Origin: an uncultured Enterococcus sp.
GTDB taxonomy: Bacteria > Bacillota > Bacilli > Lactobacillales > Enterococcaceae
Assembly (NCBI RefSeq): GCF_913775425.1
Contig: NZ_CAJYIS010000054.1
Span: 1-50,767, forward strand
Direction of reading: 5' to 3'
Length of the DNA stretch: 50,767 nucleotides
A program made the position numbers and the translations under genes. Below are positions 24,646 to 50,767 of this stretch, piece by piece. Numbering within the stretch: position 1 is the first letter of the stretch; every line of letters starts with the position of its first letter. The notes beneath the pieces were generated by a model. The model saw only the letters and a program-made list of their open reading frames with translations, searched no databases and was not told the DNA's origin.

Positions 24646-25401
24646 ATGAAGAAATTAGTTAGCGGAGTACTAATGGTTTCTGTTTTAAGTGGTTTCTTAC
24701 TGATGTTGTTTACTCGTTCAGTAGATGCTGAAACAGCGATTGCGAATGTTACGATGATCATTCATGAAGATGAAAGTGACAGTGAGCAGACGACGATGGG
24801 TGGTAGATTAGTTGGGTTATACGATATCACTTCAATTTATTTGGAAGCAAAACAAGCTTCAGACTTCGATGAGAAAAAATTTAGTGAAACATGGTCAGAT
24901 AAAACGTTACACAGTGATGAAGGATTACCTGCACCATTAAAAACGGCAACAACCAATAGTGAAGGCGAATGTGAATTTGTCGTTCCTATGAAACAAAATG
25001 GTGAATATGCTGTGTATCTTGTTCGTGAAATGAGTCAAATCCAGTCGAAAAAAGTATTGCCTTCAGTGATTATTTTGCCAGTTCGTTCAGTCGAAACTAA
25101 CGAAGTATTAACTACTATCGATGTGTATCCCAAATATATTGATGGAAAAGTATCAGAAAAGCCAACCACTCCAACAGAACCGAGTGTACCAGAAGAACCA
25201 TATACACCGACAGAGCCAAGTGTACCAGAAGAACCGTACACCCCAACTGAAACGACTTCAACTGAGTCGACACCGTTTGGGAAATTTCCAAGTACCAACG
25301 AGCTGAAAACCAAGGCTTCGTGGATCGGTGCAGGGATTATCTTACTGGCGGGGATTTTGATTATAGCCAGAAAAAAACAAACTAAAGGAGAGAGAAAATG
25401 A
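24646..25401 (+). CDS. Minor (basal) pilin with FPSTN sorting signal
   Basis: A 251-residue precursor with a signal peptide ending near VDA, one pilin-type domain (about residues 30-165) containing the pilin-motif-like VYPKY, and a Pro/Glu-rich stalk. The stalk has two copies of TEPSVPEEPYTP. The C-terminus is PFGKFPSTNE, a hydrophobic helix and KK...K. The sorting signal therefore reads FPSTN rather than LPXTG. A Pro-rich stalk and wall-proximal position suit the basal subunit that ends pilus growth. GAGGAGA lies 7 nt before the ATG. The gene overlaps the major pilin by 4 bp. Confidence 0.82.
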   Translation: MKKLVSGVLMVSVLSGFLLMLFTRSVDAETAIANVTMIIHEDESDSEQTTMGGRLVGLYDITSIYLEAKQASDFDEKKFSETWSDKTLHSDEGLPAPLKTATTNSEGECEFVVPMKQNGEYAVYLVREMSQIQSKKVLPSVIILPVRSVETNEVLTTIDVYPKYIDGKVSEKPTTPTEPSVPEEPYTPTEPSVPEEPYTPTETTSTESTPFGKFPSTNELKTKASWIGAGIILLAGILIIARKKQTKGERK

Positions 25402-27218
25402 AAAAGAAAAAACGCAATCTATGGATGAGCATGATGTTGTTATTACCAGTCATGGCTGGTGTGATCACAGCAGGAAGCCATCAGGTCAAAGCAGCTGAAG
25501 AAGATAAAAATACTGTAAATATTACGCTAAATAAAAAAGCATATGATGAAGTAAGAGATGACAAAGGGAATATCATTCCACCTACAGAGTATCCAAATAC
25601 AGGATTGGAAATGGACGAATTTAAAAATGCGAAACCGTTACCAGGTGTGACGTTTAAAGCCTATAATGTCACTGAAGACTACACTGCAGCATATAAAGCT
25701 GCCTTTGACACGACGATCGATCAAAAAGAAGCAGCAGAAAAAGCAGCTGAAGCAGCCAAAAACAAACTAATGAGCACTTACAGTAATACAGAATTACCTA
25801 GTTCAGGGAAAGTTGGGACTGAAGTTACAGATGCTAATGGTCAAGCAAAATTTACAGACTTAACAGCAAAATCTAACGGAATCTATCAAGCATATATGTT
25901 TTTTGAAACAGCTAAACCAGCTAACGTTTCTCAAGAAGCTGCACCGATGTTAGTTGTTTTGCCTGTAGAAAATGGTGGAAAACTGTTAACAGATATTCAA
26001 CTTTATCCTAAAAATGTAATTAAAAATGAATTTGATAAACAAATGGTAGGGCATGAAAAAGAAACAACTGAAAATGGTTTAGCTGTTGGTCAAAAAGGTG
26101 GATATACGGTTAAAGAGGATACAGGATATGCACAAACTGTCGGCGATAAAATTCAATATTATGTCGATTTTACCGTACCAAATGGTATTGGGGAAAGTGT
26201 TCCATTTGAAAATGGTACTAGAACTTTATACGACAAATTAACGATCAGCGATAAAATGAACGTAGTCGGTACAACATTTAATCAAATTGACAGTTTCACT
26301 GTACCAAGTGAAAACAATAAAGAGATCACTGGTGAATTAAAAGATCACTATACATTAACAAATGTTACAGGTCCAGTTACAGTGGATGGTAAAACGACTC
26401 AAACTGATCCATCAGGATTTACAATTGCTTTTAATTTAAACAATAACGTAGACGATGCAACTTCAAAAGCAACTGCAGCTGCACTCGAGCCATATGCAGG
26501 TCAAACATTGCGCGTATACTACACGATCACGATCAATGAATTTGCAGTTCCAGATGTGTATATGCAAAATGGAGCAACATACGAATTCAAAAAATCAACT
26601 GAAAATGATAGCCACAAAGATGAATCAAAAGCACCTAAATTAATCGTTGGTGGACGCCATTTCAAAAAAATCGACGGTAGTTCAGAAAATGGTTTAGCTG
26701 GAGCAGAATTCATCATTCAATTGAATAACGATATTAAAAACAACCAAGGTCAAATCGTCGGTAAAGCAGGACAATATGTTCAATACACAGAAGGACCAGC
26801 TGATAAAGTCAATGGATTAGGAACAGGAGCTGCACAAGAAATTTACAATCCAGCAACTGCTCAAGGTGTACGTTATGTCGATGACCAATCTAAAGCAAGC
26901 ATTATCAAATCTGGCGAAAACGGAAACTTTGAAGTAAAAGGATTATTGTATGCTGAAGAAGATGCTTATGCCTTGATTGAAACCAAAGCACCAGAAGGTT
27001 ATGTGATTGTAAAAGAAAAAACTGATTTTACGATCAATGCAGGTAGTTATGGTCAAGCAGGTGATGACTTAGAAATCACGATCATCAATAATCATGAAGG
27101 ATTCTTGCCAGGTACTGGTGGTAATGGAATTTATGCTTACTTAGCAGTAGGGGCGCTTGTTGTAGCAGCAGCAGGTTTCTGGTTTGTAAGATCTAGAAAA
27201 AATGAAGTGAAATTTTAA
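25398..27218 (+). CDS. Major pilin (backbone), LPXTG type
   Basis: A 606-residue precursor with a signal peptide ending near VKA. The pilin motif LYPKNVIK supplies Lys205 as the likely nucleophile for polymerisation. Several Cna_B-like domains follow, with an E-box in YALIETKAPEGY near the end. The sorting signal is LPGTGG, followed by a helix and the tail RSRKNEVKF. Subunits would be joined covalently from Lys205 to the Thr of LPGTG by the class C sortase encoded next. Its position between the minor pilin and the sortase is the normal pilus arrangement. Confidence 0.92.
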   Translation: MKKKKRNLWMSMMLLLPVMAGVITAGSHQVKAAEEDKNTVNITLNKKAYDEVRDDKGNIIPPTEYPNTGLEMDEFKNAKPLPGVTFKAYNVTEDYTAAYKAAFDTTIDQKEAAEKAAEAAKNKLMSTYSNTELPSSGKVGTEVTDANGQAKFTDLTAKSNGIYQAYMFFETAKPANVSQEAAPMLVVLPVENGGKLLTDIQLYPKNVIKNEFDKQMVGHEKETTENGLAVGQKGGYTVKEDTGYAQTVGDKIQYYVDFTVPNGIGESVPFENGTRTLYDKLTISDKMNVVGTTFNQIDSFTVPSENNKEITGELKDHYTLTNVTGPVTVDGKTTQTDPSGFTIAFNLNNNVDDATSKATAAALEPYAGQTLRVYYTITINEFAVPDVYMQNGATYEFKKSTENDSHKDESKAPKLIVGGRHFKKIDGSSENGLAGAEFIIQLNNDIKNNQGQIVGKAGQYVQYTEGPADKVNGLGTGAAQEIYNPATAQGVRYVDDQSKASIIKSGENGNFEVKGLLYAEEDAYALIETKAPEGYVIVKEKTDFTINAGSYGQAGDDLEITIINNHEGFLPGTGGNGIYAYLAVGALVVAAAGFWFVRSRKNEVKF

Positions 27219-27251
27219 TCACTTGCAATAAATAAAATGGGGGTAATATAT

Positions 27252-28463
27252 ATGAAGCGTACAAATAGAAGTTCTGGGCCGAAAAATCAATTGTTTAGTC
27301 GATTGATGGTACTAGGGTTACTTTTGATTGGATTGCTGATTATGTGTTACCCTTTTTATATTGATGCGGTAAATGGCTATATCGACCAATATCGGATTAC
27401 GAAATTTGAACAAGAAATGACGGAGCGTAATGCTGAAACCGTCGCGGCACAAAAGAAAAAAATGGAAGAAAAGAATAAGGAAATCGCTAAAAATGGTTTA
27501 GTAGCAAATTCAGATCCATTTACTGATATTTCAGAAAATGAGATCACCTCAAATGCAATGCGGAAAGAACATTTGATTGGATCGATTAGTATTCCTAAGA
27601 TCAAAGTTACGATTCCTTTATTTGATACGACCAATGACTTCTTGCTACAAGACGGTGCAACAGTATTAGATGATTATTCGATGCCGACTGGCGGTGAAGA
27701 TACGCATGCCGTGATTGCAGGACATAGAGGACTAGCTCAACGAAAACTATTTACAGATCTAGACAAAATCAAACTGGGCGATACTTTTGTTATCAATGTA
27801 TTAAATGATAATTTAGCTTACGAAGTTGATAATATCCAAGTCGTAAAACCGAATGATATCTCAGCGCTTGCGATCCAACCACATCGCGATTTGGTCACGT
27901 TAGTTACATGTACGCCTTATATGATCAATAGTCATCGTTTATTGATTACAGGCCATCGCGTACCGTATACACCGGTGATTGCCAAAGAAGTTGCAAAAGG
28001 AAATCAAGGAATGAATTTGCAACGAATCTTGATTTTAAGTGCCTTTGTCACAGTTACTCTAACTATATTTGCCACGATGGGCTATATGATCTACCGTGCA
28101 CGTCAAACGACAAGAATGATCACGATTCGTTTACTTGTAACTAATCAAGAAAATCAACCGCTGGCACATGAGCAAGTGTTGCTATATCCCAAAAAAGGTA
28201 GTCAACCATTGATGGAAAATGGACGCCGAATGATTCGGACGACAAACGCTCTAGGGATTGTAGAATTCAACTATTTAAAAGCAGATATCTATCGAGCAAA
28301 GTTAGTCTATCATGAAGATGTCGAAGTATTTGTTGGCATCAAATCGAAGAAACAAAAAGCGATCGAAGTCTATCAAGTACAAGTAAAACATCAAACACAT
28401 CAAAAACAAAAGGATTGTCAAATCTCGCTTGTTCAACCAAGAACGTCATTTGCAATCTCTTAA
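27252..28463 (+). CDS. Class C (pilus) sortase with C-terminal extension
   Basis: The start at 27252 has a G-rich RBS 8 nt upstream, whereas the ATG at 27237 lies on top of that RBS. The 403-residue enzyme has an N-terminal helix, a lid motif (NSDPFTD) and catalytic His158 (VIAGHRG), Cys220 (LVTCTPY) and Arg229 (NSHRLLI). The second membrane helix is at about residues 259-281. Class C enzymes usually end soon after that helix; this one adds about 120 residues resembling a Cna_B/carboxypeptidase-regulatory beta-sandwich (TIRLLVTNQENQPLAHEQV...GIVEFNYLKADIYRAKLVY). By topology the extension would be cytoplasmic. It polymerises the two upstream pilins. Confidence 0.92.
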   Translation: MKRTNRSSGPKNQLFSRLMVLGLLLIGLLIMCYPFYIDAVNGYIDQYRITKFEQEMTERNAETVAAQKKKMEEKNKEIAKNGLVANSDPFTDISENEITSNAMRKEHLIGSISIPKIKVTIPLFDTTNDFLLQDGATVLDDYSMPTGGEDTHAVIAGHRGLAQRKLFTDLDKIKLGDTFVINVLNDNLAYEVDNIQVVKPNDISALAIQPHRDLVTLVTCTPYMINSHRLLITGHRVPYTPVIAKEVAKGNQGMNLQRILILSAFVTVTLTIFATMGYMIYRARQTTRMITIRLLVTNQENQPLAHEQVLLYPKKGSQPLMENGRRMIRTTNALGIVEFNYLKADIYRAKLVYHEDVEVFVGIKSKKQKAIEVYQVQVKHQTHQKQKDCQISLVQPRTSFAIS

Positions 28464-38112: not shown

Positions 38113-39600
38113 ATGGAAAAAATTATAGTGGTTGGAGCAGGCGTAGCAGGATTAAGTGCAGCTGTTCGTTTACAAAATCTGGGTTATGATGTTCATTTAT
38201 ATGAAAAAGACGTCAAGCCTGGTGGAAAAATGAATCAAATCGAAAAAGATGGCTTTCGTTTTGACGTAGGACCAACGATCGTGATGATGCCCGAAATTTA
38301 TCGTGAGGTGTTTGAAGTCTGCGGGAAAGATCCTGATGACTACATTCCAATGGAAAAAGTCGATCCAATGCTAGAATTGTTTTTTGCAAACGACGACCCA
38401 TTGCTATTTTCAAGTGACCTTACGACGTTGACAAAAACGTTAGAAGATATCTCAGAAGAAGATGCGCAAGGCTATTTTGCCTTTTTAGCGGATATCTACA
38501 AACGATACTTGATTGCAAAAGAACATTTTATTATGAAATCGTTCCGTGGTCCGCTTGATTTTTATAATCCAAAATCATTGTGGGCGGGTGTTCGTTTGCG
38601 TACGTTTAGCGATGCCTATTCTTCGATCTCTAAATTTGTCAAAGATGACCGCTTGCGTAAATCGCTTGCCTTTCAGACATTGTATATCGGTGTTTCACCG
38701 TATCAAGGTCCATCATTGTATACGATTATTCCGATGATCGAGCTCTTTTATGGGGTGCATTTTATGAAAGGTGGGATGTATACCTTAGCGAAATCATTAG
38801 ACCGATTGTTTAAAGAATTAGGTGGAACAGCTCATTATGGTACACCAGTCGATGAAATCGTCATCGAACAAAAGTCTGCCAAAGGAATCCGTATTGGCCA
38901 AGAGATGATTGCAGCCGATGCTGTCGTGTGTGGAGCTGATTTTCCATATGCAATGAAGCATTTGATCCCTGACGAAAAGAAACGCGGAAAATATACTAAC
39001 AAAAAAATCGATAAAATGGAGTACTCATGTTCTTGCTTCTTGATGTATCTTGGCTTAGATAAGCATTATCCAGGAGAGACGTTACATAGTATTTATTTTG
39101 CTGAAGATTTTGAACGCAATGTGAGTGATTTGTTTGAAGACGGGGTACTTCCAGAAGATCCTTCATTTTATTTGTATCGACCAACTTTACTTGATAAAGA
39201 TTTAGCACCAGAAGGCAAGGAAGGCCTGTATGTCTTGATTCCAGTACCAGAAGTGTCAAAATATAATGACTGGTCAGATCAGGCGATTCAAACGTATCGC
39301 AATAAAATTGTTGAGTTGATCCAAACGAAAACGCAATTTACAGATCTAAATGATCATATCGTGTTTGAAGAATATTACACACCAGATAAATTCAAGCAAC
39401 AATTCAATGCCTATAACGGTGCGACATTTGGACTGAAGCCAATCTTGTCACAAAGTAATTACTATCGCCCACACAACAAATTTGATTATGCAGAAAATCT
39501 TTATTTCTGCGGAAGTAGTACCCATCCTGGAGCGGGAGTGCCGATCGTCATGCAAAGTGCTAAACTTGCAGTAGAGGAGCTGGTCAAAGATGATCAATAA
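38113..39600 (+). CDS. crtN: 4,4'-diapophytoene desaturase
   Basis: A 495-residue FAD enzyme of the CrtI/CrtN family. The N-terminal dinucleotide fold is VVGAGVAGLSAAVRL, followed by GGKMNQIEKDGFRFDVGPT. The C-terminal carotenoid-desaturase signature is FCGSSTHPGAGVPIVMQSA. With CrtM it makes the yellow C30 pigment 4,4'-diaponeurosporene. No crtP, crtQ or crtO genes for staphyloxanthin are near. It overlaps crtM by 11 bp and follows the ABC ATPase by 3 bp. Confidence 0.93.
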   Translation: MEKIIVVGAGVAGLSAAVRLQNLGYDVHLYEKDVKPGGKMNQIEKDGFRFDVGPTIVMMPEIYREVFEVCGKDPDDYIPMEKVDPMLELFFANDDPLLFSSDLTTLTKTLEDISEEDAQGYFAFLADIYKRYLIAKEHFIMKSFRGPLDFYNPKSLWAGVRLRTFSDAYSSISKFVKDDRLRKSLAFQTLYIGVSPYQGPSLYTIIPMIELFYGVHFMKGGMYTLAKSLDRLFKELGGTAHYGTPVDEIVIEQKSAKGIRIGQEMIAADAVVCGADFPYAMKHLIPDEKKRGKYTNKKIDKMEYSCSCFLMYLGLDKHYPGETLHSIYFAEDFERNVSDLFEDGVLPEDPSFYLYRPTLLDKDLAPEGKEGLYVLIPVPEVSKYNDWSDQAIQTYRNKIVELIQTKTQFTDLNDHIVFEEYYTPDKFKQQFNAYNGATFGLKPILSQSNYYRPHNKFDYAENLYFCGSSTHPGAGVPIVMQSAKLAVEELVKDDQ

Positions 39601-40477
39601 TCAATATACATTTTCTTCTCAGCAAGCTGATTTTTTAGCTTGCGAGAAGATCATCAAGCATCATTCGAAAACGTTCTATTTTGCTTTTTCAAAATTACCC
39701 AAAGAGCAAGCTCAAAGTATTTTTGCGATCTATGCATTTTGTAGAGAGGCAGATGACATCGTTGATTTAACTAAAGATCGCGCAAAACTAGAGGCCTTAT
39801 ATCAAAAATTAGTTGCATTTGAGCAAGGAAATATTCCGAACGAACCGATTTTCAGAGCGTTAGCGGTGGTTTTTCAACACTACCCAATGGATATCGCACC
39901 ATTTTATGATATGTTAGAAGGCCAAGCAAAAGATCTAGAATTCAGACAACCCAAAACATTAGGTGAGTTAAAAGAGTATGCTTATTACGTTGCAGGAAGC
40001 GTCGGGTTGATGTTATTGCCATTGCTATCACGGTATCCTGAAAAAATCCAAGAACCAGCTAAAAAATTAGGAGAAGCAATGCAAATCACTAATATTTTAC
40101 GTGATATTGGTGAAGATTATCGTATGGGACGGATTTATTTACCAATGGAAGATATGCTTCGCTTTGATGTTTGTCCATATGACTTGGGTAAAACTGAACC
40201 AACAGAAGCAGTAGTGGAATTATGGGAATTTCTAGCACAAGAAGCGGAACGGTTGTACGATGAATCATTTGAAATGCTGCCATTATTGGAAACTAAGGCA
40301 CAAAAGCCTTTATATCTAGCTGCGACAGTCTACCGTGAGATTTTAATGGAGATTCGTCATAAACAGTATCAAATGTTAACCAAACGGCAATCGGTCAGCC
40401 GATTTAGAAAGTTGGAGTTATTTCAACAAGCGACCAAACAAGTTGCGCGCCTGATAGCAGGTGAGGCAAATGTATGA
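39590..40477 (+). CDS. crtM: 4,4'-diapophytoene (dehydrosqualene) synthase
   Basis: A 295-residue trans-isoprenyl head-to-head synthase that condenses two farnesyl diphosphates. Both Mg2+-binding Asp-rich motifs are intact: CREADDIVD (about residue 48) and NILRDIGEDYRMGR (about residue 168), with the early SKTFYFAFSKL segment. Its length and pairing with crtN favour the C30 rather than the C40 pathway. The start overlaps crtN by 11 bp and its stop overlaps the TetR gene by 8 bp, so all three are translationally linked. Confidence 0.92.
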   Translation: MINNQYTFSSQQADFLACEKIIKHHSKTFYFAFSKLPKEQAQSIFAIYAFCREADDIVDLTKDRAKLEALYQKLVAFEQGNIPNEPIFRALAVVFQHYPMDIAPFYDMLEGQAKDLEFRQPKTLGELKEYAYYVAGSVGLMLLPLLSRYPEKIQEPAKKLGEAMQITNILRDIGEDYRMGRIYLPMEDMLRFDVCPYDLGKTEPTEAVVELWEFLAQEAERLYDESFEMLPLLETKAQKPLYLAATVYREILMEIRHKQYQMLTKRQSVSRFRKLELFQQATKQVARLIAGEANV

Positions 40478-42230: not shown

Positions 42231-42258
42231 TTGAATTTTTTATGAATTTCGCTATAAT
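42231..42258 (+). promoter_or_regulatory. promoter of the SipW-fibre operon
   Basis: TTGAAT and a perfect TATAAT are separated by 16 bp. Transcription would begin about 190 bp before the sipW start, leaving a long AT-rich leader (42265-42456) in which I see no gene. Confidence 0.65.
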
Positions 42259-42456: not shown

Positions 42457-43038
42457 GTGAAGCAAGAAAACAAGATTCTACACTATATATGGAATATCTT
42501 TTTTTATACAGTAATCGTTCTATTTTTAGTTGGTGCTGGTTTATTTGCTTTTATGCAGCAACAAGACCGATCGGTTGGAGGATACCGATTATTTGGTGTT
42601 TTAACGGACTCGATGATTGCGCCAGGAAATACATTGAAAGAGGGTGGTTTTCGTTCTGGAGATATCGTCATTACTAAAGAGGTCGATCCTGGTAAGTTAA
42701 AAGTAGGTGATGTAGTTACCTTTCGTTTGACACCAATCGATGGACAAAGTGAAGAAACTAATTTTTTAACACACCGGATCATTAAACTGACTCCTCAAGA
42801 AAATGGTCAGATTCAAGTGACCACACAAGGTGACGCCAATCGCTCGTCAGATCAACCAATCAACGCAGATAAGATTGTGGGAAAAGAAGTGTTTCGCATC
42901 CCAGCGATCGGTGGTTGGCTATTGTTTATTCGTGGACATTTATTATTATCGCTTATGGTTCTAGTGGCTGTCTTAGCACTAGTTTGGGGAATAACGCAAT
43001 TATTTTCAAAAGATCCATCCTCAATAAAGGAAACATAA
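42457..43038 (+). CDS. sipW: SipW-type (ER-type) signal peptidase I
   Basis: A 193-residue protein with an N-terminal helix (residues 14-32), catalytic Ser52 in LTDSMIAPG and His105 in LTHRIIKL in place of the usual Lys, then a C-terminal helix. The Ser-His dyad is diagnostic of the SipW/archaeal/ER class. In Bacillus SipW processes TasA and TapA, and homologues process BsaA in Clostridium. Three genes downstream encode the expected substrates. The start is GTG, with AAGGA 9 nt upstream. Confidence 0.92.
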   Translation: MKQENKILHYIWNIFFYTVIVLFLVGAGLFAFMQQQDRSVGGYRLFGVLTDSMIAPGNTLKEGGFRSGDIVITKEVDPGKLKVGDVVTFRLTPIDGQSEETNFLTHRIIKLTPQENGQIQVTTQGDANRSSDQPINADKIVGKEVFRIPAIGGWLLFIRGHLLLSLMVLVAVLALVWGITQLFSKDPSSIKET

Positions 43039-43067
43039 GAAAAAATCAAGATTGGGAGGAAATAGAA

Positions 43068-44120
43068 ATGAAGAAAAATAATCGGAAGAAGTGGATTGCA
43101 GCTGCAACTGCGCTCGCTGCAGTCGGAGTATTAGTCGGAACATTTGCTTGGTTTACAAGTAATGACCAAACAGTCAATAAATTTGAAGGTGGCGTAGCCG
43201 GAAATGACGTAGAAGTAGTCGAAACCTTTACACCGCCAACAGATTGGAAACCAGGACAAACGGTAGAGAAAAAGGTGGGTGTGTTAAATAGTGGAACATA
43301 TGATTCATTCACTCGCGTTTCTCTATCTGGAAAATTAACAAAATTAAAAGATCCTAATGGGAAATTAACAACTGATGTCAGTGTACTAAATAATAAAAAT
43401 GCAGACCAAGTGTATTTATATACGTATAGTGGATCTCTAAATGGATTTACTGAGATTCCTTCAACAAGCCTAAAATACACGACAAAAGATAGCAATGAAG
43501 TCACGACAATTAAAGACGGAGCTCCTTCATTTACTGTGGCTAGTGGTGCTTATGCAGGAACATACACTCTAAGAGTATTGGTGAATGCAGACGGACAATA
43601 TACTTCTTATTGGAATAATCCAGCTAATAATACCAAATATTATGCTAAAGTCGGATCTTACAGTAAAGATGGAAATACTGTAATATTGCAAACAAATCCA
43701 CAATTTGAATATTTAGATTTAACACCAGATACACCTGTTACCGTGGATTGGTTAAAAACTAAACCAACCGTTACCGTACAGGATGACGGCACGGCTACAG
43801 TAACATCAAATGCAGATGAAAATATTCAAATCCATTTTGTTAATTTATCGAAAACTCCTACTACAGGAAAATGGTTCTACAATGATGATGATGGCTATTT
43901 TTACTATGTTGGTAAATTAGCACCTCAAGAAACAACTGAATTATTGATTGATTCGGTTACGCTAAACCAAAATGCGGATAACAGCTATACTAAGGTCAAA
44001 TATGATTTAACAATCAATGCAGACGGTATCCAAGCGCGTAAAGGAGCTCCATCAAGTGATCAGTGGGTCAATGGAACGAATGATACCTTGCGTACTGCTT
44101 TAGAAGACTTAGCTAATTAA
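43068..44120 (+). CDS. SipW-dependent fibre protein 1 (TasA/BsaA-like)
   Basis: The start at 43068 has GGAGG upstream; the open frame extends further back only over sipW in another frame. The 350-residue precursor has a basic N-terminus, a hydrophobic core and the SipW-type junction GTFAWFTSNDQT at about residues 24-35. The beta-rich remainder contains WKPGQTVEKKVGVLNSG and FTRVSLSG, typical of TasA/camelysin/BsaA proteins that assemble into matrix fibres. Being the first and largest of three and next to the peptidase, it may be the major subunit. A hairpin follows that could raise its transcript level over downstream genes. Confidence 0.85.
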   Translation: MKKNNRKKWIAAATALAAVGVLVGTFAWFTSNDQTVNKFEGGVAGNDVEVVETFTPPTDWKPGQTVEKKVGVLNSGTYDSFTRVSLSGKLTKLKDPNGKLTTDVSVLNNKNADQVYLYTYSGSLNGFTEIPSTSLKYTTKDSNEVTTIKDGAPSFTVASGAYAGTYTLRVLVNADGQYTSYWNNPANNTKYYAKVGSYSKDGNTVILQTNPQFEYLDLTPDTPVTVDWLKTKPTVTVQDDGTATVTSNADENIQIHFVNLSKTPTTGKWFYNDDDGYFYYVGKLAPQETTELLIDSVTLNQNADNSYTKVKYDLTINADGIQARKGAPSSDQWVNGTNDTLRTALEDLAN

Positions 44121-44135
44121 TTAAAATTTAACTGG

Positions 44136-44174
44136 AAATAAAGCTAGTAGGCAGCAGCGTGCTAGCTTTATTTT
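44136..44174 (+). terminator. hairpin after fibre protein 1 (partial terminator or RNA stabiliser)
   Basis: AATAAAGCTAG pairs with CTAGCTTTATT around a loop of about 15 nt, followed by TTG. The T-run is short, so it is more likely to protect the upstream mRNA or stop only part of transcription. Confidence 0.55.
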
Positions 44175-44193
44175 GAAATAGGAGGAGGAGTGG

Positions 44194-44877
44194 ATGAGAA
44201 AAATCATTTTTTCATGTCTTCCGTTACTCTTTTTGACGAGTTGCTTTTTTATGCTATCGACAGCACGTGCGCAAGAATTACCTTCGAGTCTATTGATTGG
44301 AGACAATGAAGGCATCAAGGTACAAAATAATGGTGAATATTTCGTCAATGTGACTGATGTCATGCCTGGAAAAAGCTGGTATAAAAAACTAACGATTCAA
44401 AATACTGAAAAAGATGTACCGTATTCACTGACTTTACAGATCTCGCCAGCGAAAGTATCGGGAATTTTAGATCTATCAAAAGCGATCCAAATGAAATTGA
44501 CCTATGAAGGGGAAGTCGTTTACGAAGGGCCTGCTTCAGGAATCAATGATACGCAAAATTTACAACAAAATCCTTTGTCGCTCGGGACATTTGCCTCAGG
44601 AGATAAACGGATCTTTGAAGTCGAGTATTCGCTGTCGGAAAAGTATACGAGTAAAGATTTTGAAGTCAAAAATACGATGGAAAATGTTTGGACGTTTTCT
44701 GCCATTAAAAAGAAATCTTCACTACCAAGTACAGGTGGAAATACGAATAAACCGTTTGGGAATCTACCGATGACCAACGAACAACTAAAAAGTGGCATGG
44801 TGATCGGTTTATTGTTATTAGGTCTTTGGGCGATTTTATTAATTCTTCGCAAACGTACTCAACAAAGAAAGGTGTGA
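44194..44877 (+). CDS. Wall-anchored companion of the fibre locus, LPMTN sorting signal
   Basis: A 227-residue precursor. Its classical signal peptide ends at ARA-QE (a lipobox-like LTSC is also present, so lipidation is not excluded). One beta-sandwich domain of about 140 residues includes VTDVMPGKSWYKKLTIQN. The C-terminus has two candidate sorting motifs: LPSTGG about 20 residues before the helix and PFGNLPMTNEQ next to it, followed by a helix and an RKR tail. Position favours LPMTN as the real site. It probably tethers the SipW fibre to the wall, the role TapA plays in Bacillus, though the sequence is unrelated to TapA as far as I can see. Confidence 0.75.
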   Translation: MRKIIFSCLPLLFLTSCFFMLSTARAQELPSSLLIGDNEGIKVQNNGEYFVNVTDVMPGKSWYKKLTIQNTEKDVPYSLTLQISPAKVSGILDLSKAIQMKLTYEGEVVYEGPASGINDTQNLQQNPLSLGTFASGDKRIFEVEYSLSEKYTSKDFEVKNTMENVWTFSAIKKKSSLPSTGGNTNKPFGNLPMTNEQLKSGMVIGLLLLGLWAILLILRKRTQQRKV

Positions 44878-44880
44878 GAA

Positions 44881-45747
44881 ATGATGAAAGATAAACTAGT
44901 TCAGTCAATCAAGCGTTATCCAAAAGTCGTTCTCCTCCTTTTTTTATTAGTTATTAGTGCGAGTAGCTTTACCGTTGGAACGTATGCGTGGTATGTCTCG
45001 TCAGATCAAACGGAAAACAAATTTCAAGGTACCGTTTTTCAATCACAAATTGCAGAAGTCTTCGCACCCGTGGTGGACTGGCAACCCAATCAAACCAAAC
45101 CAAAACAAGTTTCGGTTCAAAATGCAGGAGAAATGCCTTCATTTGTACGATTATCACTTTATGAATTTTTAATTGATTTTAAAATCAACTACGAAGATCA
45201 GTCTGGCAATGCGAATTTAGAACAACTTAAAGGGCCTACTGCGAATCCCATCGATGAAAAAAATACCGATACATGGGTCAAACAACATTCATATTTAGCT
45301 AATGATGGTAATTACTACTTAGCCAATCATGCTTGGATTCCTTCGACTGATCCTAGTAAACAACAAATGTTTACTTATAATCCAGATCGAACGTTAGACC
45401 GTAATGAATTTGCTTATAGTAGTCAAACGTATCAACAGTTAAAATATTTTCAACTTAATTTTACTAACAATCTAATGACAACTGTGCAAGCAAACACGCA
45501 AAATGGTTACTGGTTATATGAAAAAGGTTATTTTTATTATTCAAAACCTTTACAACCTGGAGAAACAACAAGTGATTTATTAGAAAGTGTTAGGTTAGCA
45601 TACAACTTTCCAAACAAGTATAAAAATGCGCTCTACACGATCAAAGTATTTATGGATGCACATGATCCAACCGATTCTATCTACGCTAACTGGGGGATCT
45701 CAACAGATAGTGAAGCCGGAAAATTAATCAAAGCACAATTAAATTAG
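44881..45747 (+). CDS. SipW-dependent fibre protein 2 (TasA/BsaA-like)
   Basis: A 288-residue precursor with the SipW-type junction GTYAWYVSSDQTENKF at about residues 33-48, almost the same as in fibre protein 1. WQPNQTKPKQVSVQNAGEMPS and FVRLSLYEF parallel the equivalent region there. The C-terminal half has YWLYEKGYFYYSKPLQPGET, similar to WFYNDDDGYFYYVGKLAPQE in protein 1, so the two are paralogues. An ATG at 44884 is an alternative start. It is likely a second fibre subunit. Confidence 0.82.
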   Translation: MMKDKLVQSIKRYPKVVLLLFLLVISASSFTVGTYAWYVSSDQTENKFQGTVFQSQIAEVFAPVVDWQPNQTKPKQVSVQNAGEMPSFVRLSLYEFLIDFKINYEDQSGNANLEQLKGPTANPIDEKNTDTWVKQHSYLANDGNYYLANHAWIPSTDPSKQQMFTYNPDRTLDRNEFAYSSQTYQQLKYFQLNFTNNLMTTVQANTQNGYWLYEKGYFYYSKPLQPGETTSDLLESVRLAYNFPNKYKNALYTIKVFMDAHDPTDSIYANWGISTDSEAGKLIKAQLN

Positions 45748-45760
45748 GAGGGAATAGAAG

Positions 45761-46384
45761 ATGAAGTTACATAATCAAAAAAACAAAATGATCCTCATCG
45801 CAAGTTCCCTCTTTATTTTATTGATGGGCATTGGGATTTTCGGTGGATACACATACGCTTCATTTACCGATAAAGACAGCAGAGATAACGGTTTTGTTGC
45901 TACTGGGTTAAAGGGAACGATTAAAGAAGATTTTCCTAAGCCTGGAACAGTAGAACCAGGAAAAACCTATACTAAAGAAGTGACGATCAAAAATGAAGAA
46001 CACGCACCATTTTTTGTACGCATTTTAGTATTACCAGAAATGACCTCACAAGACGGGATTCTTTTACCAGCAAATATCGGGCAAGAATTAGTCATGGATA
46101 TAGGAAATGATTGGCAATTAGGCGAAGATGGATTCTATTATTATAAAAAAGTAGTCGATTATAATGAAACAACAACACCATTATTTACGAAAGTCAAAAT
46201 TCCAACGAGTTTAGCAGATACCTATAACAATGCGAACTTAACGATCAATGTTAAGAGTGAAACGGTCTCAGCAGCAGGGATTAATTACCGCGATGCATAT
46301 TTTCATGGTGTGACACCGACTGAAACAGACTTAAAAGCGTTAGATACTCTATACAACTCACTTTCGATCAAAGGAGGAAACTAA
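45761..46384 (+). CDS. SipW-dependent fibre protein 3 (TasA/BsaA-like)
   Basis: A 207-residue precursor with the junction GGYTYASFTDKDSRDNGF at about residues 28-45. A compact beta domain follows with VEPGKTYTKEVTIKNEEHAP, FFVRILVLPEM and GFYYYKKVVDYNETT, the family pattern in short form. It is the smallest of the three and could be an initiator or cap. AGGAGGG precedes the start, 13 bp after protein 2. The stop is 2 bp before the next start codon. Confidence 0.82.
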   Translation: MKLHNQKNKMILIASSLFILLMGIGIFGGYTYASFTDKDSRDNGFVATGLKGTIKEDFPKPGTVEPGKTYTKEVTIKNEEHAPFFVRILVLPEMTSQDGILLPANIGQELVMDIGNDWQLGEDGFYYYKKVVDYNETTTPLFTKVKIPTSLADTYNNANLTINVKSETVSAAGINYRDAYFHGVTPTETDLKALDTLYNSLSIKGGN

Positions 46385-46386
46385 TC

Positions 46387-49300
46387 ATGCACTTATTCAA
46401 AAAAACACTTAAATCATTGTTTCTTCTTTTGATCTTGATGGGGGTTGGATTAGGGGTAAAAGGTGCGACGATTCAAGCGGTCGATGAATCAGCAAGTCGT
46501 GGATTAAATGCAGATGGCTTATATGAATATACAGATAAAGAGTTAGGCGTAGGCTTTACAAATTGGCAAAATGATGGAACGATAAGTTTTGAGCAAGAAT
46601 TTTTGAATCTCGATAAAAAGGGAAAACCTGCTTCTAAACAAATCTTGACGTCTATAGTAGGTCGTAAAAATTTGTATCAACAGATTAATACAATTACAAT
46701 AAGATCGCTATCAAAAGACACAGTTCCTTATTACAGTAATAGTTTTAATGCGATTGCTGTCAAAGGAGCGGAAGACCCTACACTTTATGCGCAAAGCTCA
46801 AGATATAAAAACAGCGTGCTTTTATCAAACAGTGGAACTGGTTTTTTCTACGATGTGCCGTTTGATACGAATACTTCAGCAATTCCAGGAAATAAAGGCA
46901 TAAACGCGGGTCCGTCAATAACCGTTTTTCCAAATTATGCAACAGATAAACAATCATCATTTAATATCTATTTAAACCCAAATCAATCGGCTGTTCCAAG
47001 TCTTCCTGCAATAGGAGGAGCCTCTAATTTACAGTCGGTTTATTTTTCACAAGACAGTCCACAAAATAAAACTATTACAGCAACAATGAAAGTCAATTTG
47101 TACTATCTGGCTGCTAACTCAGGAACAGAAAATACATTAGGTTCTATTGGGTACACGGGGAATCCTTCAGTCGCTGTTCCCCAAATGACCAAAATTCTCT
47201 ACCGTGATGTGAATAATCCAAAACAAGATATTAGTCCAAGCAAAACTCTAGGACAACGAAAAGAAGCGGGTGGTACGGATACCGGGATGTATATGGAGCC
47301 ACTTAGTGCATCGAGTATCCCCATTTCTGGGTACACGTATAAAAATTATCAAGTATTACTTGGTAGAGGAGATAAAAACGATGTTTATACTTCAGAAACT
47401 AGGGCTGTTTCTGCCGATACCACATGGGAAGGTGCTCAAAATACTAGTGGTAAAGCGCATCGCTATATTATTTTTTATTACGAAAAAAAACCTGATACAG
47501 GAACTATAAAAAAAAGCAATGATAAAAAAGATACTGGTGTGGTAGTCAATTCGAGTACACCAGACAATATCGTGACCTATACGTTAAATGTTACCAATAC
47601 TTCTGATCATGATGTCAAAGGATTTGAAATGCAAGATACCTTGCCAAGTGGAATGTCAAATATCACTAACAGTTTGAGCGGAAGCCCAAGTAACGTTCAA
47701 TTAAATGGGACAGCATTATCTGCCACAAGTAGCACGAGTAATGACTACTATAGTTATAGTGCTACGAATAATACTTTAAGCGTCAAACTAAATAAAACGG
47801 CAATCAAACCTCAAGAAACCGTAAAAATTACGTATCAATTAAAAGTAAAAACGGGCACAGTGGGAGAACAGAAAAAAAATACAGTTATTTTAAAGAGTTC
47901 TACTGGTGAAACTTTAGACAAAGCAGGCTCTACTTTTAGCATTAACGAACCACCTAGTGGAATACTTACGAAAACCAATACGGCAGCAAGTGCATTGATT
48001 TTAAATCAACCGGTCACTTATACATTAAATGCGACCAATACCACAAGTGCCACGACTTTTAATAACGCAAAATTGGTCGATGTATTGCCAAATAATTTAG
48101 CAAGCCCAACCAATATTAAATTAAATGGCATAGCACTGAAAACAACAGGTGATAATTATTATGAACTAAGTGGACAGAAACTTACGGTCCATTTTAAAAC
48201 AATAGCACCTAAACAAGTGATGAAGGTGACGTACGATACTTATCCAACAGCTGTCGTGTCACCGTTAGTCAATAATGCGGACTTTTTACTTTCAGACGAC
48301 ACCTCACTAGCGAAAGCCAAGTCAACGGTCAATGTCGTCGATACAAAAGGAAGCGTGACGAAAGTAAATGATGCGACCGCACCGATTTTAGCCAATAGTA
48401 TGGTGAATTACACGATCACCGCGACTAATGAATCGACGGTGGCTTTGAGTAAGTTCAAATTAGTCGATACATTACCTAGTGGTGTTGCTTTGACTAAAGA
48501 CTCAACCATCAGTGTTGCTGGAACTAAGATCAGTTCAAAAGCAGATCTTGAAAATAGTGGTGGGAATGTTGCTACAAGTGATTATTATGAGTGGAATAGC
48601 ACCAGTCAGATACTCACGGTTTATTTCAATAAAACGACGCTTAATCCAAATGCCAATGTAAAAGTCGTGTATTCAGCGCAAGCTTCCAAACCAGGAACGC
48701 ACACGAATACTGTTGAATTTAAGGATCCTAATAATAAAACTTTAGGAAATGCTTCGTCAGAGATTCAGGTATATCAGGCATCATTGACAAAAACAAATGA
48801 TAAAGCCAAAACCGGTGCTATTGTTGGACAAACGGTAACATACACATTGACCGCAAATAATTTAGCCTCTTCTGCTGGTGATATTAAAGGATCATTCATT
48901 TATGATGATCTGCCAACGGGAATGGGAGTGCCGCAAAATGTCTATCTACAAGTCATTCCGAGTGGAACAAGCCCTTCAGATAATGCTAAAGTAAAACTTC
49001 CAAATACTGGTGGATCTACGACAAACTATTATACTTTGGATAATAATAAAACAAGATTGACGATCCATTTTAATGGCACGACATTTAAACCTGGAGATCA
49101 AGCGGTTATCACTTACGAAAGTGTAGTTACTGCGGGGAATACGGGAGATACAAAGAAAAACAGTGCTGATTGGCGTAATTCTAAATCAACATCGATGGCT
49201 AAAGCCGATTCCACTTTTCCGATTGTCGCTGAAGCATTTAAAGCAAGTTTAACTAAAACGAACGACAAAGCAACATCTGGAACGGTACGTGGTCAAGATG

Positions 49301-50767
49301 TTACCTATACGTTGAGCGTAAAAAATGATATGACCTACACCAATTTAGAAGATGCGTACGTTCAAGATACATTCCCAACAGACATGTCAAAACCAAAACA
49401 AGTGACGGTAAATAACGTGTTGATCAGTCAAAAAAATGCCCAAGATCAAACGTTAAACTATAACTACTATACGTGGGATAGTGGGATTTTAACGGTTTAT
49501 CTACAAGGCGCGAGTATTGCGCCTGGAAAAACGGCTGAAATCAAATACACGACGACACTAGCTAGTTTAAGTACAACGTCTTCTGATGCAGAAAAACAAG
49601 CCGTGAAAAAAGAAAATACAGCAAAACTGTTTAGCGTAAAAAAAGATGAGCTAGAGACTGCAAAATCTGAGTTTCCGATCATCAAAGGCGAATTGACCAA
49701 AACCAATGATCAACCAGTGGGGGTAGTCAAAGTTACCCAGAAAAAAGGTGAGAGTGACGCTGCTTATCAAACTAGAGTGAAAAATGATACGATTGAGTAT
49801 ACGTTGAAATTTAAAAATACCTCTTTGATTAATTTAAGTAATACATATATCAAAGATAAGTTACCTGAAGGATTAAGTGAACCTAAAACAATTCTTTTAA
49901 ATGGTAAAGTACTCGCTAATGGTGATACAGCGAAACTCGAAAATGGCTATTTGATTATCAATTTAAATTATACGGTACTTCAACCTAATGTCGAGCAAAC
50001 ACTTACTTATAAAGCTTATGTGACGTCTGATGAAGTGCAATCGCCATTTGTAAATACGGCAGAATTATTTACACAAGACAATCATTCCCTAGCTAATTCA
50101 GAGTCAACAGTAAACTTATTCAAAGGGAGTATTGTCAAAGAAAATAATAAACCCAATGGAGCCTTTACAGGCGATGTAGTGCATTACACGATCGATGCAA
50201 AAAATGCTGAGAATTCGTCTATTTTAGAAAATTCTTATATTAAAGATAAGTTGCCGACCGGAATGTCTACGCCAACCAATATTATGATGAATGGTAAAGC
50301 ATTAGTTGAATTTGACAAAGATACTTCAAATACTGAAAATCGTAACAACACCGATACGTATGAATTCGATACGAAAAACAATATTTTGATTATCCATATC
50401 AATGGTAGTGATATTGCACCAGGTGAAACTGTTAAGATCGAGTATGACAGTACGATTACAGCAATAAATAGCGGCGAAGTACAAAAGGTAAATACAGCCA
50501 CGTTTTATAAACGGGGTAGCCGTGATGCAAATAATAAGTGGGTCGATCACGAGCTAGATACTGACAATTCGACCGTTAAACTCGTAAAACCAACTAAAAC
50601 GGTCAAACTCAATATCAAACAAGAGTATTTTACCACTTCACAAAATAATCGTTTAGTCTATCCAAAAACAGGTTATTTTAACTTAAAGAATCTATCGACG
50701 GCAAGTAATCAAGTCGTTGAAAGTTATTCTGTGACAAGCAAATCTTACGCAATCGACAGTCCGGATG
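46387..50767 (+). CDS. Giant DUF11-repeat surface protein, 3' end beyond the window
   Basis: The frame is open from the ATG at 46387 (RBS AAAGGAGG, 7 nt) to the window edge, giving at least 1460 residues. A signal peptide is followed by about 340 residues I do not recognise, then at least seven tandem repeats of 130-155 residues. These start near residues 371, 525, 655, 797, 953, 1100 and 1246. Each begins with (L/S)TKxND, continues with VTYTL and contains DTLPSGM and an LTVxF segment, the DUF11 (conserved repeat) pattern. Such stalks are beta-rich and often stabilised by Lys-Asn bonds. The C-terminal anchor would lie outside. As last visible gene of the sipW operon it may be a long adhesin or fibre partner. 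Confidence 0.85.
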   Translation, partial: MHLFKKTLKSLFLLLILMGVGLGVKGATIQAVDESASRGLNADGLYEYTDKELGVGFTNWQNDGTISFEQEFLNLDKKGKPASKQILTSIVGRKNLYQQINTITIRSLSKDTVPYYSNSFNAIAVKGAEDPTLYAQSSRYKNSVLLSNSGTGFFYDVPFDTNTSAIPGNKGINAGPSITVFPNYATDKQSSFNIYLNPNQSAVPSLPAIGGASNLQSVYFSQDSPQNKTITATMKVNLYYLAANSGTENTLGSIGYTGNPSVAVPQMTKILYRDVNNPKQDISPSKTLGQRKEAGGTDTGMYMEPLSASSIPISGYTYKNYQVLLGRGDKNDVYTSETRAVSADTTWEGAQNTSGKAHRYIIFYYEKKPDTGTIKKSNDKKDTGVVVNSSTPDNIVTYTLNVTNTSDHDVKGFEMQDTLPSGMSNITNSLSGSPSNVQLNGTALSATSSTSNDYYSYSATNNTLSVKLNKTAIKPQETVKITYQLKVKTGTVGEQKKNTVILKSSTGETLDKAGSTFSINEPPSGILTKTNTAASALILNQPVTYTLNATNTTSATTFNNAKLVDVLPNNLASPTNIKLNGIALKTTGDNYYELSGQKLTVHFKTIAPKQVMKVTYDTYPTAVVSPLVNNADFLLSDDTSLAKAKSTVNVVDTKGSVTKVNDATAPILANSMVNYTITATNESTVALSKFKLVDTLPSGVALTKDSTISVAGTKISSKADLENSGGNVATSDYYEWNSTSQILTVYFNKTTLNPNANVKVVYSAQASKPGTHTNTVEFKDPNNKTLGNASSEIQVYQASLTKTNDKAKTGAIVGQTVTYTLTANNLASSAGDIKGSFIYDDLPTGMGVPQNVYLQVIPSGTSPSDNAKVKLPNTGGSTTNYYTLDNNKTRLTIHFNGTTFKPGDQAVITYESVVTAGNTGDTKKNSADWRNSKSTSMAKADSTFPIVAEAFKASLTKTNDKATSGTVRGQDVTYTLSVKNDMTYTNLEDAYVQDTFPTDMSKPKQVTVNNVLISQKNAQDQTLNYNYYTWDSGILTVYLQGASIAPGKTAEIKYTTTLASLSTTSSDAEKQAVKKENTAKLFSVKKDELETAKSEFPIIKGELTKTNDQPVGVVKVTQKKGESDAAYQTRVKNDTIEYTLKFKNTSLINLSNTYIKDKLPEGLSEPKTILLNGKVLANGDTAKLENGYLIINLNYTVLQPNVEQTLTYKAYVTSDEVQSPFVNTAELFTQDNHSLANSESTVNLFKGSIVKENNKPNGAFTGDVVHYTIDAKNAENSSILENSYIKDKLPTGMSTPTNIMMNGKALVEFDKDTSNTENRNNTDTYEFDTKNNILIIHINGSDIAPGETVKIEYDSTITAINSGEVQKVNTATFYKRGSRDANNKWVDHELDTDNSTVKLVKPTKTVKLNIKQEYFTTSQNNRLVYPKTGYFNLKNLSTASNQVVESYSVTSKSYAIDSPD

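Follow-up and report, generated by a model that had tools for sequence, protein, structure and literature searches.

A conserved SipW-Bsa gene cluster of Enterococcus and related bacteria that may encode a wall-anchored TasA-type fibre with a giant adhesin

Introduction

In Clostridium perfringens, the secreted protein BsaA forms polymers that resist sodium dodecyl sulfate, and the signal peptidase SipW is required for BsaA to reach the outside of the cell (PMC7395162; here and below, published systems are described from excerpts of the cited papers). In Bacillus subtilis, the mature TasA protein begins at residue 28 (PMC10151520), its donor strand comprises residues 28–38 with contacts made by F29, I32 and F39 (PMC9674648), and TapA is a membrane-associated protein that donates the first strand (PMC9674648, PMC10151520). 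The B. cereus system is built from two camelysin subunits, TasA and CalY, that co-assemble, and a third operon protein, CapP, is located at the wall and controls assembly (PMC13082335). Here we describe a six-gene locus at positions 42,457–50,767 of a stretch of DNA from an uncultured Enterococcus sp. (RefSeq assembly GCF_913775425.1). This stretch, which we call the window, is the whole of contig C54 (50,767 bases) of a 2.08-Mb genome. The locus combines a SipW-type peptidase and three Bsa proteins (BsaA1 to BsaA3) with a protein bearing a cell-wall sorting signal, which we call LPX, and a giant surface protein. We put the probability that it specifies a TasA/BsaA-type fibre, anchored to the wall and carrying a giant adhesin, at about 0.64.

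The locus has features in common with each of these systems. Like sipW-bsaABCRSD of C. perfringens, it sets SipW beside several secreted proteins, of which the principal one is BsaA-type; the clostridial operon also contains a two-component system and a dispensable srtB, and, as far as the excerpts of that paper go, its BsaA has no predicted LPxTG-like motif (PMC7395162). Unlike in C. perfringens, a sortase-sorted partner and a giant protein ending in a domain that we term WDY are the rule in the clusters studied here, and the window cluster has no two-component pair. Like tapA-sipW-tasA of B. subtilis, the locus encodes SipW-processed subunits of the camelysin family with phenylalanine at position +12. 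It differs from TasA/TapA in having three subunits rather than one, a protein with a wall-sorting signal in the operon and an added giant adhesin; the cluster proteins have no NCBIfam match that bears a TapA name (E ≤ 1), although no search aimed at TapA was made. With B. cereus it shares camelysin subunits and a third operon protein at the wall (PMC13082335). CapP, as excerpted, belongs to DUF4047, is repetitive in its C-terminal region and is not a sortase substrate, and its authors regard the TasA/CalY/CapP system as sortase-independent, unlike the window with its sorting signal (PMC13082335).

Sortase-assembled pili of the SpaH/Ebp and GBS104/RrgA type offer a further comparison. As in those pili, von Willebrand factor A (VWA) and GBS104-like immunoglobulin (Ig) heads occur in the clusters described here (19 giants), other giants have isopeptide or SpaA repeat domains, and there is a sorted wall protein. 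The clusters differ from such pili in that the putative Bsa shaft subunits lack LPxTG, the giants end in WDY and no pilin sortase lies in the cluster. Because the Bsa proteins lack LPxTG and the giants end in WDY, the shaft should be non-covalent. Within the open-licence PMC literature that was searched, and to the extent of the excerpts it yielded, we found no account of a sortase-anchored TasA/BsaA system or of enterococcal SipW clusters. An earlier interpretation of the window made from its letters alone (hereafter the sequence-only reading) had noted that the exact combination is not known as a characterised system. The fibre part is not new, since NCBI already labels some such subunits "BsaA family" or "TasA family protein"; novelty, as far as could be seen, lies in the anchor, in WDY and in the conserved combination.

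Results

Gene content of the locus

All six genes lie on the plus strand in the order SipW, BsaA1, LPX, BsaA2, BsaA3 and giant, with intergenic gaps of 29, 73, 3, 13 and 2 bp. The first gene (42,457–43,038) has a GTG start and encodes a 193-residue SipW-type (archaeal/endoplasmic reticulum-type) signal peptidase I. The protein scores 67.3 bits against TIGR02228, above the cut-off of 51.85, and 47.4 bits against the Bacillus SipW equivalog model NF046067, where the cut-off of 190 is not reached, so that it is no orthologue in the sense of that model. The three Bsa proteins are BsaA1 (43,068–44,120; 350 residues; junction GTFA/WFTSNDQTVNKF), a candidate fibre subunit that we guess to be the main one, and BsaA2 (44,881–45,747; 288 residues; GTYA/WYVSSDQTENKF) and BsaA3 (45,761–46,384; 207 residues; YTYA/SFTDKDSRDNGF), each a candidate subunit or adaptor. 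Their signal-peptidase junctions thus read GTFA/W, GTYA/W and YTYA/S. LPX (44,194–44,877; 227 residues) lies between BsaA1 and BsaA2, and the giant occupies 46,387–50,767. The sequence-only reading had described a single-strand locus of a peptidase, three proteins with T(F/Y)A junctions, an LPxTx protein and a DUF11 giant, and each of these is found where it had been placed.

BsaA1 matches TIGR04090, the family of BsaA-type SipW-dependent biofilm matrix proteins, with an E value of 1.2e-33 (116.9 bits, cut-off 60), and Pfam Peptidase_M73/camelysin with 29.9 bits (cut-off 22.5). BsaA2 also passes TIGR04090 (9.2e-20, 71.4 bits), whereas BsaA3 stays below the cut-off (1.4e-11, 44.6 bits); the assignment to TasA/camelysin/BsaA that the sequence-only reading had suggested for all three thus stands on this model for two of them and falls short for the third. 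All 29 aligned relatives of BsaA3 match TIGR04090 at E ≤ 0.001, and profile–profile comparison links the three proteins to one another (BsaA2 to BsaA1, E = 2.1e-38; BsaA3 to BsaA1, 7e-27; BsaA3 to BsaA2, 2e-29). None of the three has an (L/F)PxT motif in its last 60 residues or, by eye, a hydrophobic end. No relative of BsaA3 or of WDY was found in viral contigs, and none of BsaA1 in phages.

Conservation of the cluster

Of the 105 genomes of the family, 33 have TIGR04090 matches, spread over 6 of its 17 genera. We assembled 60 family clusters from 58 loci picked by hand for BsaA1-type matches among the matches listed, the window and a locus of Enterococcus sulfureus ATCC 49903 (L030, of which L035 was omitted as a duplicate), the sole relative in a named genome collection, whose anchor protein is 74% identical to LPX. 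Every one of the 60 keeps the order SipW-Bsa-LPX-Bsa, and 54 have a third Bsa gene. Bsa genes were named by position, as labels from the best hidden Markov model (HMM) mixed BsaA1, BsaA2 and BsaA3; the counts are of clusters picked from lists, not of independent events, and the placeholder entries L054 and L170 do not enter them. When an LPX profile was searched against 395 genomes of the order, matches below 1e-40 came, among the matches listed, from 34 genomes in three families, and the weaker ones listed mostly covered the sorting signal only. In the two other families (f2 and f8), the same order is present in 20/20 loci from 13 genomes, a set that holds 20 of the 21 strong LPX matches outside the family among the matches listed. 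A class-wide draw of 398 genomes gave LPX at E ≤ 1e-15 in four, all from the order of the window. Because the gene order is kept in 60/60 and 20/20 loci, it is conserved beyond chance, and what the sequence-only reading had seen in one strain holds across the family and in two others.

The system occurs widely in the order, and a genome often holds several copies; as many as 17 WDY matches fall in one genome (G006, a draft of 160 contigs). Relatives of LPX also sit on plasmids, namely a 206-kb plasmid of E. wangshanyuanii and plasmids of about 1 Mb of E. raffinosus (three records), and an annotated cluster on a plasmid was seen in one record of each species. NCBI labels some Bsa proteins in these two records "BsaA family" or "TasA family" and the anchor and giant "hypothetical protein" or "cell wall protein". 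On the E. raffinosus plasmid (L199, 3,800–16,516) the cluster stands amid genes for a second signal peptidase, a glucosaminidase, an NlpC/P60 protein and an FtsX-like protein; these neighbouring enzymes are possibly wall openers for fibre export.

A donor-type N terminus

The TasA contacts F29, I32 and F39 correspond to positions +2, +5 and +12 of the mature protein. In the window, BsaA1, BsaA2 and BsaA3 have F, Y and F at +2, respectively, and all three have F at +12. Among called junctions of the 60 clusters, F occupies +12 in 24/60 of BsaA1 (with V in a further 20), 29/42 of BsaA2 and 48/59 of BsaA3, compared with only 0–2 of the Bsa junctions at the control positions +10, +11 and +13 to +15. 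Asparagine is found at +10 in 49/60, 42/42 and 49/59 junctions, respectively. Junctions were called for 42 of the 54 BsaA2 and 59 of the 60 BsaA3 proteins; some BsaA1 junctions were placed four residues early (for example in L036), so the BsaA1 counts are too low. No F was found at +12 in the 26 called junctions of the 60 LPX proteins, and this lack of a donor segment would fit a base that accepts a strand and donates none.

LPX, the putative anchor protein

LPX ends in an LPMTN-E motif, a hydrophobic stretch and a basic tail, a sorting signal that scores 19.4 bits against TIGR01167 (cut-off 15.9). The motif that aligns with those of its relatives is LPMTN-E at residue 191 (44,764–44,778); a second, LPSTG, occurs at residue 177. 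The 25 aligned LPX proteins mostly have (L/F)PxTGE, with LPMTN-E in the window and E. sulfureus; common to all is a folded region, marked by PGxxxxxxITIxN, besides the C-terminal signal. LPxTN in place of LPxTG was also seen as LPKTN in L187. The genome has six sortase matches, none of them in the cluster, and the only one on contig C54 (27,585–27,962) belongs to another locus.

No Pfam family covers the N-terminal part of LPX, and comparing its profile with the sequences of solved structures gave nothing useful. An AlphaFold2 (AF2) model built from two sequences (mean pLDDT 65) predicts a β-sandwich, for which VIA-align ranks TasA first (5of2, Z 8.6, RMSD 3.8, 134 aligned), followed by the TasA structures 5of1 (Z 8.3) and 8aur (Z 7.9) and the TasA-related archaeal bundling pilus 7ueg (Z 7.7). 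The structural match is borderline, since an unrelated plant enzyme reaches Z 8.0. We therefore regard LPX as a probable, not a proven, TasA-like module. The LPxTx-anchored protein of the sequence-only reading thus keeps its sorting signal, but it is more than a tail, with a predicted fold that TasA matches best, at a borderline score.

The giant protein and its constant C-terminal domain

The giant is a DUF11/isopeptide-domain surface protein, of which the window holds the first 1460 residues; it matches TIGR01451 with 128.1 bits (cut-off 24) and TIGR04226 with 119.4 bits (cut-off 30), in seven stretches each. Its truncation is due solely to the end of contig C54 at 50,767. Contig C58 of the same genome opens with an identical 127 bases and closes the reading frame (L055:1–417) at ...YNWDYAINEFN, an end with no LPxTG. 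The giants share this C-terminal domain, WDY, of about 150 residues, with the signature IPEYY, a conserved H and EYWxTxYIxP...YSWDYKxNxFG; in the window genome it is split between C54 (50,572–50,757) and C58 (1–420). Of 41 WDY members, no single Pfam or NCBIfam family recognises two or more at E ≤ 0.01, and the profile has no useful match to a Protein Data Bank (PDB) chain (best E values 0.34–0.6 across the BsaA1, LPX and WDY profiles). VYPK at the start of the window WDY was considered as a pilin motif, an idea that was dropped, as E. sulfureus has VMPT there.

WDY is present in 57 of the 60 Bsa-selected clusters, among them the window, where C58 completes it. Of the 20 loci from the two other families, 17 have it; 34 loci that were chosen by WDY are excluded from these frequencies. 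With these included, 114 loci yield 109 proteins with WDY, which lies within 10 residues of the C terminus in 105, and the final 45 residues of all 109 are free of LPxTG-like motifs. At the level of genomes, WDY occurs in 31 of the 105 of the family, 30 of which also match TIGR04090; genome G052 (L169) has a WDY giant yet no TIGR04090 match. Bsa genes lie upstream in 27 of the 34 WDY-fetched loci, and two of the 34 are cut by contig ends.

The other end of the giants varies. With five probes from four giants, the heads of 110 giants, the window's included, were assigned to VWA plus GBS104-like tip-pilin Ig (19), RCC1 (11), SpaA (10) and the window-type DUF11 (4), and 66 met none of the probes. 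A Pfam scan of six giants found VWA plus GBS104-like Ig in L037, RCC1 in L050, SpaA in L053 and L088 and nothing in L044 and L045; the L088 giant has one DUF11 above the Pfam cut-off besides SpaA. The DUF11 identity given to the giant by the sequence-only reading is confirmed by TIGR01451, yet giants of this type are rare. The giant is not the attachment to the wall: it lacks a sorting signal, and the constant feature of the giants is a C-terminal WDY instead. Exchangeable heads on an end that stays constant, next to a fibre operon, are what one would expect of a docking domain.

Neighbouring genes and regulatory elements

A promoter-like site, TTGAAT-16-TATAAT, lies upstream of sipW on the plus strand (42,231–42,258; 10/12 consensus matches); it is a lead only, because such sites occur in the region at chance number (16 found, 15.9 expected). 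A strong RNA hairpin on the same strand (44,118–44,196; −23.7 kcal/mol, z −5.15, 0/200 shuffles as good) lies between the BsaA1 and LPX genes and is a possible attenuator or 3′ stabiliser, and E. sulfureus has one of −28.6 kcal/mol after BsaA1 (L030, about 9,941–9,982). An attenuator as a general trait was rejected: terminator-like hairpins follow BsaA1 in 15/60 clusters, sipW in 19/60, LPX in 9/60 and BsaA2 in 6/54.

Recombinase-like genes were seen beside some clusters. A divergent serine recombinase gene lies just upstream of sipW in L037 (17,473–18,042; Resolvase, 147.4 bits), and L052 (1,276–1,845) is alike by eye. A protein with a hydrophobic C terminus often follows the giant, beside a winged-helix regulator (L045–L049, L099–L101, L103 and L104, by eye); the same type in L199 (13,875–14,582), the one locus scanned for it, matches Resolvase weakly (23.9 bits, cut-off 23.3), and it may be a membrane-tethered recombinase-like protein. 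In L036 (1,132–16,005) a Trans_reg_C winged-helix regulator gene stands before each of two clusters, the SipW cluster and a following one with WxL and WxL-interacting proteins.

Upstream, the window and E. sulfureus share a carotenoid gene pair, a TetR gene, an abhydrolase gene and a DUF1722 gene. The pair (38,113–40,477), presumably crtN and crtM, encodes a phytoene-desaturase-family protein (TIGR02734, 447 bits) and a phytoene/squalene-synthase-like protein that is below all cut-offs; it lies 5′ of the cluster in both genomes. Farther away, the window holds an ordinary sortase-assembled pilus locus (24,646–28,463), with a small sorted protein first, a SpaH/EbpB-family major pilin (25,398–27,218; 148.2 bits, cut-off 95) and a class C sortase (27,237–28,463; 250 bits, cut-off 160).

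Discussion

We propose that SipW would cut the three Bsa precursors after the T(F/Y)A-type junction and free an N-terminal donor-strand segment, a step suggested by what is known of the family, in which, according to excerpts of one report, BsaA needs SipW and polymerises (PMC7395162). The subunits would then polymerise outside the cell by donor strand and without covalent links, as the donor pattern of the Bsa N termini suggests. BsaA1 may be the main subunit and BsaA2 and BsaA3 adaptors at the ends, an assignment that is a guess. LPX, with a β-sandwich that is probably related and no donor segment, would be attached to peptidoglycan by one of the cell's sortases and would accept the free N-terminal strand of a Bsa subunit, capping one end of the fibre. 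Being wall-linked and taking up that strand, it would be the base. The giant would consist of an adhesive head and a stalk, docked on the fibre by its constant WDY domain, and such docking would make heads exchangeable between clusters. Capping and docking are proposed from the constancy of the genes, the sorting signal and the domain architecture, and the whole may serve adhesion or cohesion.

Several observations weigh against this proposal. The LPX model is modest, and besides placing a plant enzyme beside TasA, the structural searches are not unanimous: in Foldseek TasA comes 16th (E = 3.9e-3), with the Gram-negative pilin CfaB among the proteins ahead of it. Profile comparison relates LPX to BsaA3 with 84% probability in an alignment that includes the signal peptide, and to BsaA1 and BsaA2 with 2.1% and 5.3%. 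The BsaA3 model, built from six sequences (mean pLDDT 59.6), places TasA at rank 32 (Z 5.9) and, by Foldseek, at rank 18 (E = 0.027); by sequence, the BsaA1 profile has no useful match to a PDB chain and the BsaA3 profile none at all. Position +5 is mostly non-hydrophobic in Bsa proteins, unlike the TasA contact I32. The window motif is LPMTN rather than LPxTG, and the cluster has no sortase gene of its own. WDY is missing in L039, L074, L173 and L183, and L102 and L172 stop at contig ends; five of the 34 WDY-fetched loci (L145, L161, L163, L167 and L169) have no SipW, Bsa or LPX gene alongside. Genomes G008, G039 and G102, with weak TIGR04090 matches, were left out of the locus set, and the hairpin after BsaA1 is common only to the window and E. 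sulfureus, not to other genera.

Other explanations of the locus differ in what they make of LPX and of the Bsa proteins. It is unlikely, in our estimate, that the cluster specifies a wall complex of the Csc/WxL kind for polysaccharide binding, with Bsa proteins held singly or in small complexes on a small LPxTG protein and no long fibre. The layout is similar, as Csc clusters with CscD are likewise operons for secreted proteins and one small sorted protein (PMC1534035, as excerpted), and in L036 the SipW cluster is directly followed by one that encodes WxL and WxL-interacting proteins; E. faecium WxL-interacting protein 9i1y is also a mid-rank match of the BsaA3 model (Z 6.0). Yet none of the six window proteins matches a WxL or WxL-interacting domain above cut-off (BsaA3 scores 14.9 bits against WxLIP_PGBD, cut-off 27.3), and LPX, with 227 residues and a predicted folded domain, compares with 90–140 residues for CscD (PMC1534035). 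The sorting signal matches the EF0750/EF2685 model (NF053819) in 25/25 relatives at E ≤ 0.01 by the detailed account, with 13/25 in the per-model tally, which gives 25/25 for TIGR01167. This match is unspecific, a point that also counts against the proposed fibre: LPX itself reaches 27.7 bits over residues 174–221 only (cut-off 47), and the small protein of the window's pilus locus (24,646–25,398) scores higher, at 34.4 bits, so the match says little past the presence of a sortase signal. Kinship of LPX with Csc on this ground was accordingly dropped. The Bsa proteins, moreover, come from a family whose members polymerise, and they retain the donor-type segment. That the fibre is instead loose, with Bsa shed into the matrix, as BsaA is in C. 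perfringens, and with an LPxTG protein and a giant that are independent and merely co-operonic, seems improbable. Such shedding would resemble the clostridial BsaA, which the excerpts describe as mainly extracellular, with no predicted LPxTG-like motif and a dispensable srtB (PMC7395162), and some WDY giants have no adjoining cluster; the anchor gene, however, lies between Bsa genes in 60/60 and 20/20 loci, its predicted fold is best matched by TasA, and one C-terminal domain is common to the giants whatever the head.

We consider two further readings very unlikely. If the Bsa proteins were cell-surface metalloproteases (camelysins), the cluster would be a set of secreted enzymes with no fibre; Pfam names the family Peptidase_M73, camelysin metallo-endopeptidase, and besides BsaA1, which is above its cut-off, 6 of 20 BsaA1 relatives match it at E ≤ 0.001. 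Three tandem paralogues with a donor-type N terminus and a constant sorted partner are unlike an enzyme set, however, and relatives form polymers, namely C. perfringens BsaA (PMC7395162) and, in excerpts of the report, B. cereus TasA/CalY (PMC13082335). The giant might also be exported by the adjoining accessory Sec system, with the fibre cluster a part of that system. Directly 3′ of the giant, C58 (L055, 594–6,974) carries secY2, asp1, asp2 and asp3 and then a glycosyltransferase-like gene, its SecY2 scoring 251.7 bits against TIGR02920 (cut-off 249.6); E. sulfureus has the same order after its giant (L030, 16,700–20,702; L056), with secA2 farther on, separated from the secY2-asp genes by a TnpB gene (L056:9,823–11,010). 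The nine other accessory-Sec loci examined in the family contain no SipW, Bsa or WDY gene; three of them belong to genomes with SipW clusters elsewhere (G006, G013 and G014), and four have serine-rich proteins beside them by eye. KxYKxGKxW proteins also sit away from the giant, one in the window genome (on C11, its sole match) and three in E. sulfureus (G060); the giant itself has no such signal and begins, by eye, with a short ordinary signal peptide. From the nine other loci and the placement of KxYKxGKxW, we read the adjacency of giant and secY2 as positional and rejected the giant as an accessory-Sec substrate.

Going beyond the anchored fibre to a third Gram-positive pilus architecture, with a non-covalent, donor-strand TasA-type shaft, a sortase-sorted TasA-like base that holds the shaft covalently on peptidoglycan and adhesins exchangeable through WDY as a new C-terminal docking domain, is a step that we take tentatively, at slightly less than even odds. 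If true, this pilus would be what corresponds functionally, among Gram-positive bacteria, to chaperone-usher pili; it would occur in three or more families of a single order, with multiple copies in individual genomes. In the excerpts, TapA starts TasA fibres at the membrane, and the B. cereus system is called sortase-independent by its authors. A sortase-sorted, perhaps TasA-like base would give a genetically testable answer to how TasA-type fibres are fixed on the cell; it would join two surface systems of Gram-positive bacteria, sortase and SipW. A constant WDY domain under diverse heads would show that adhesins can change while one fibre is kept. The presence of several clusters per genome, together with copies on plasmids, suggests that this surface layer matters to the cells.

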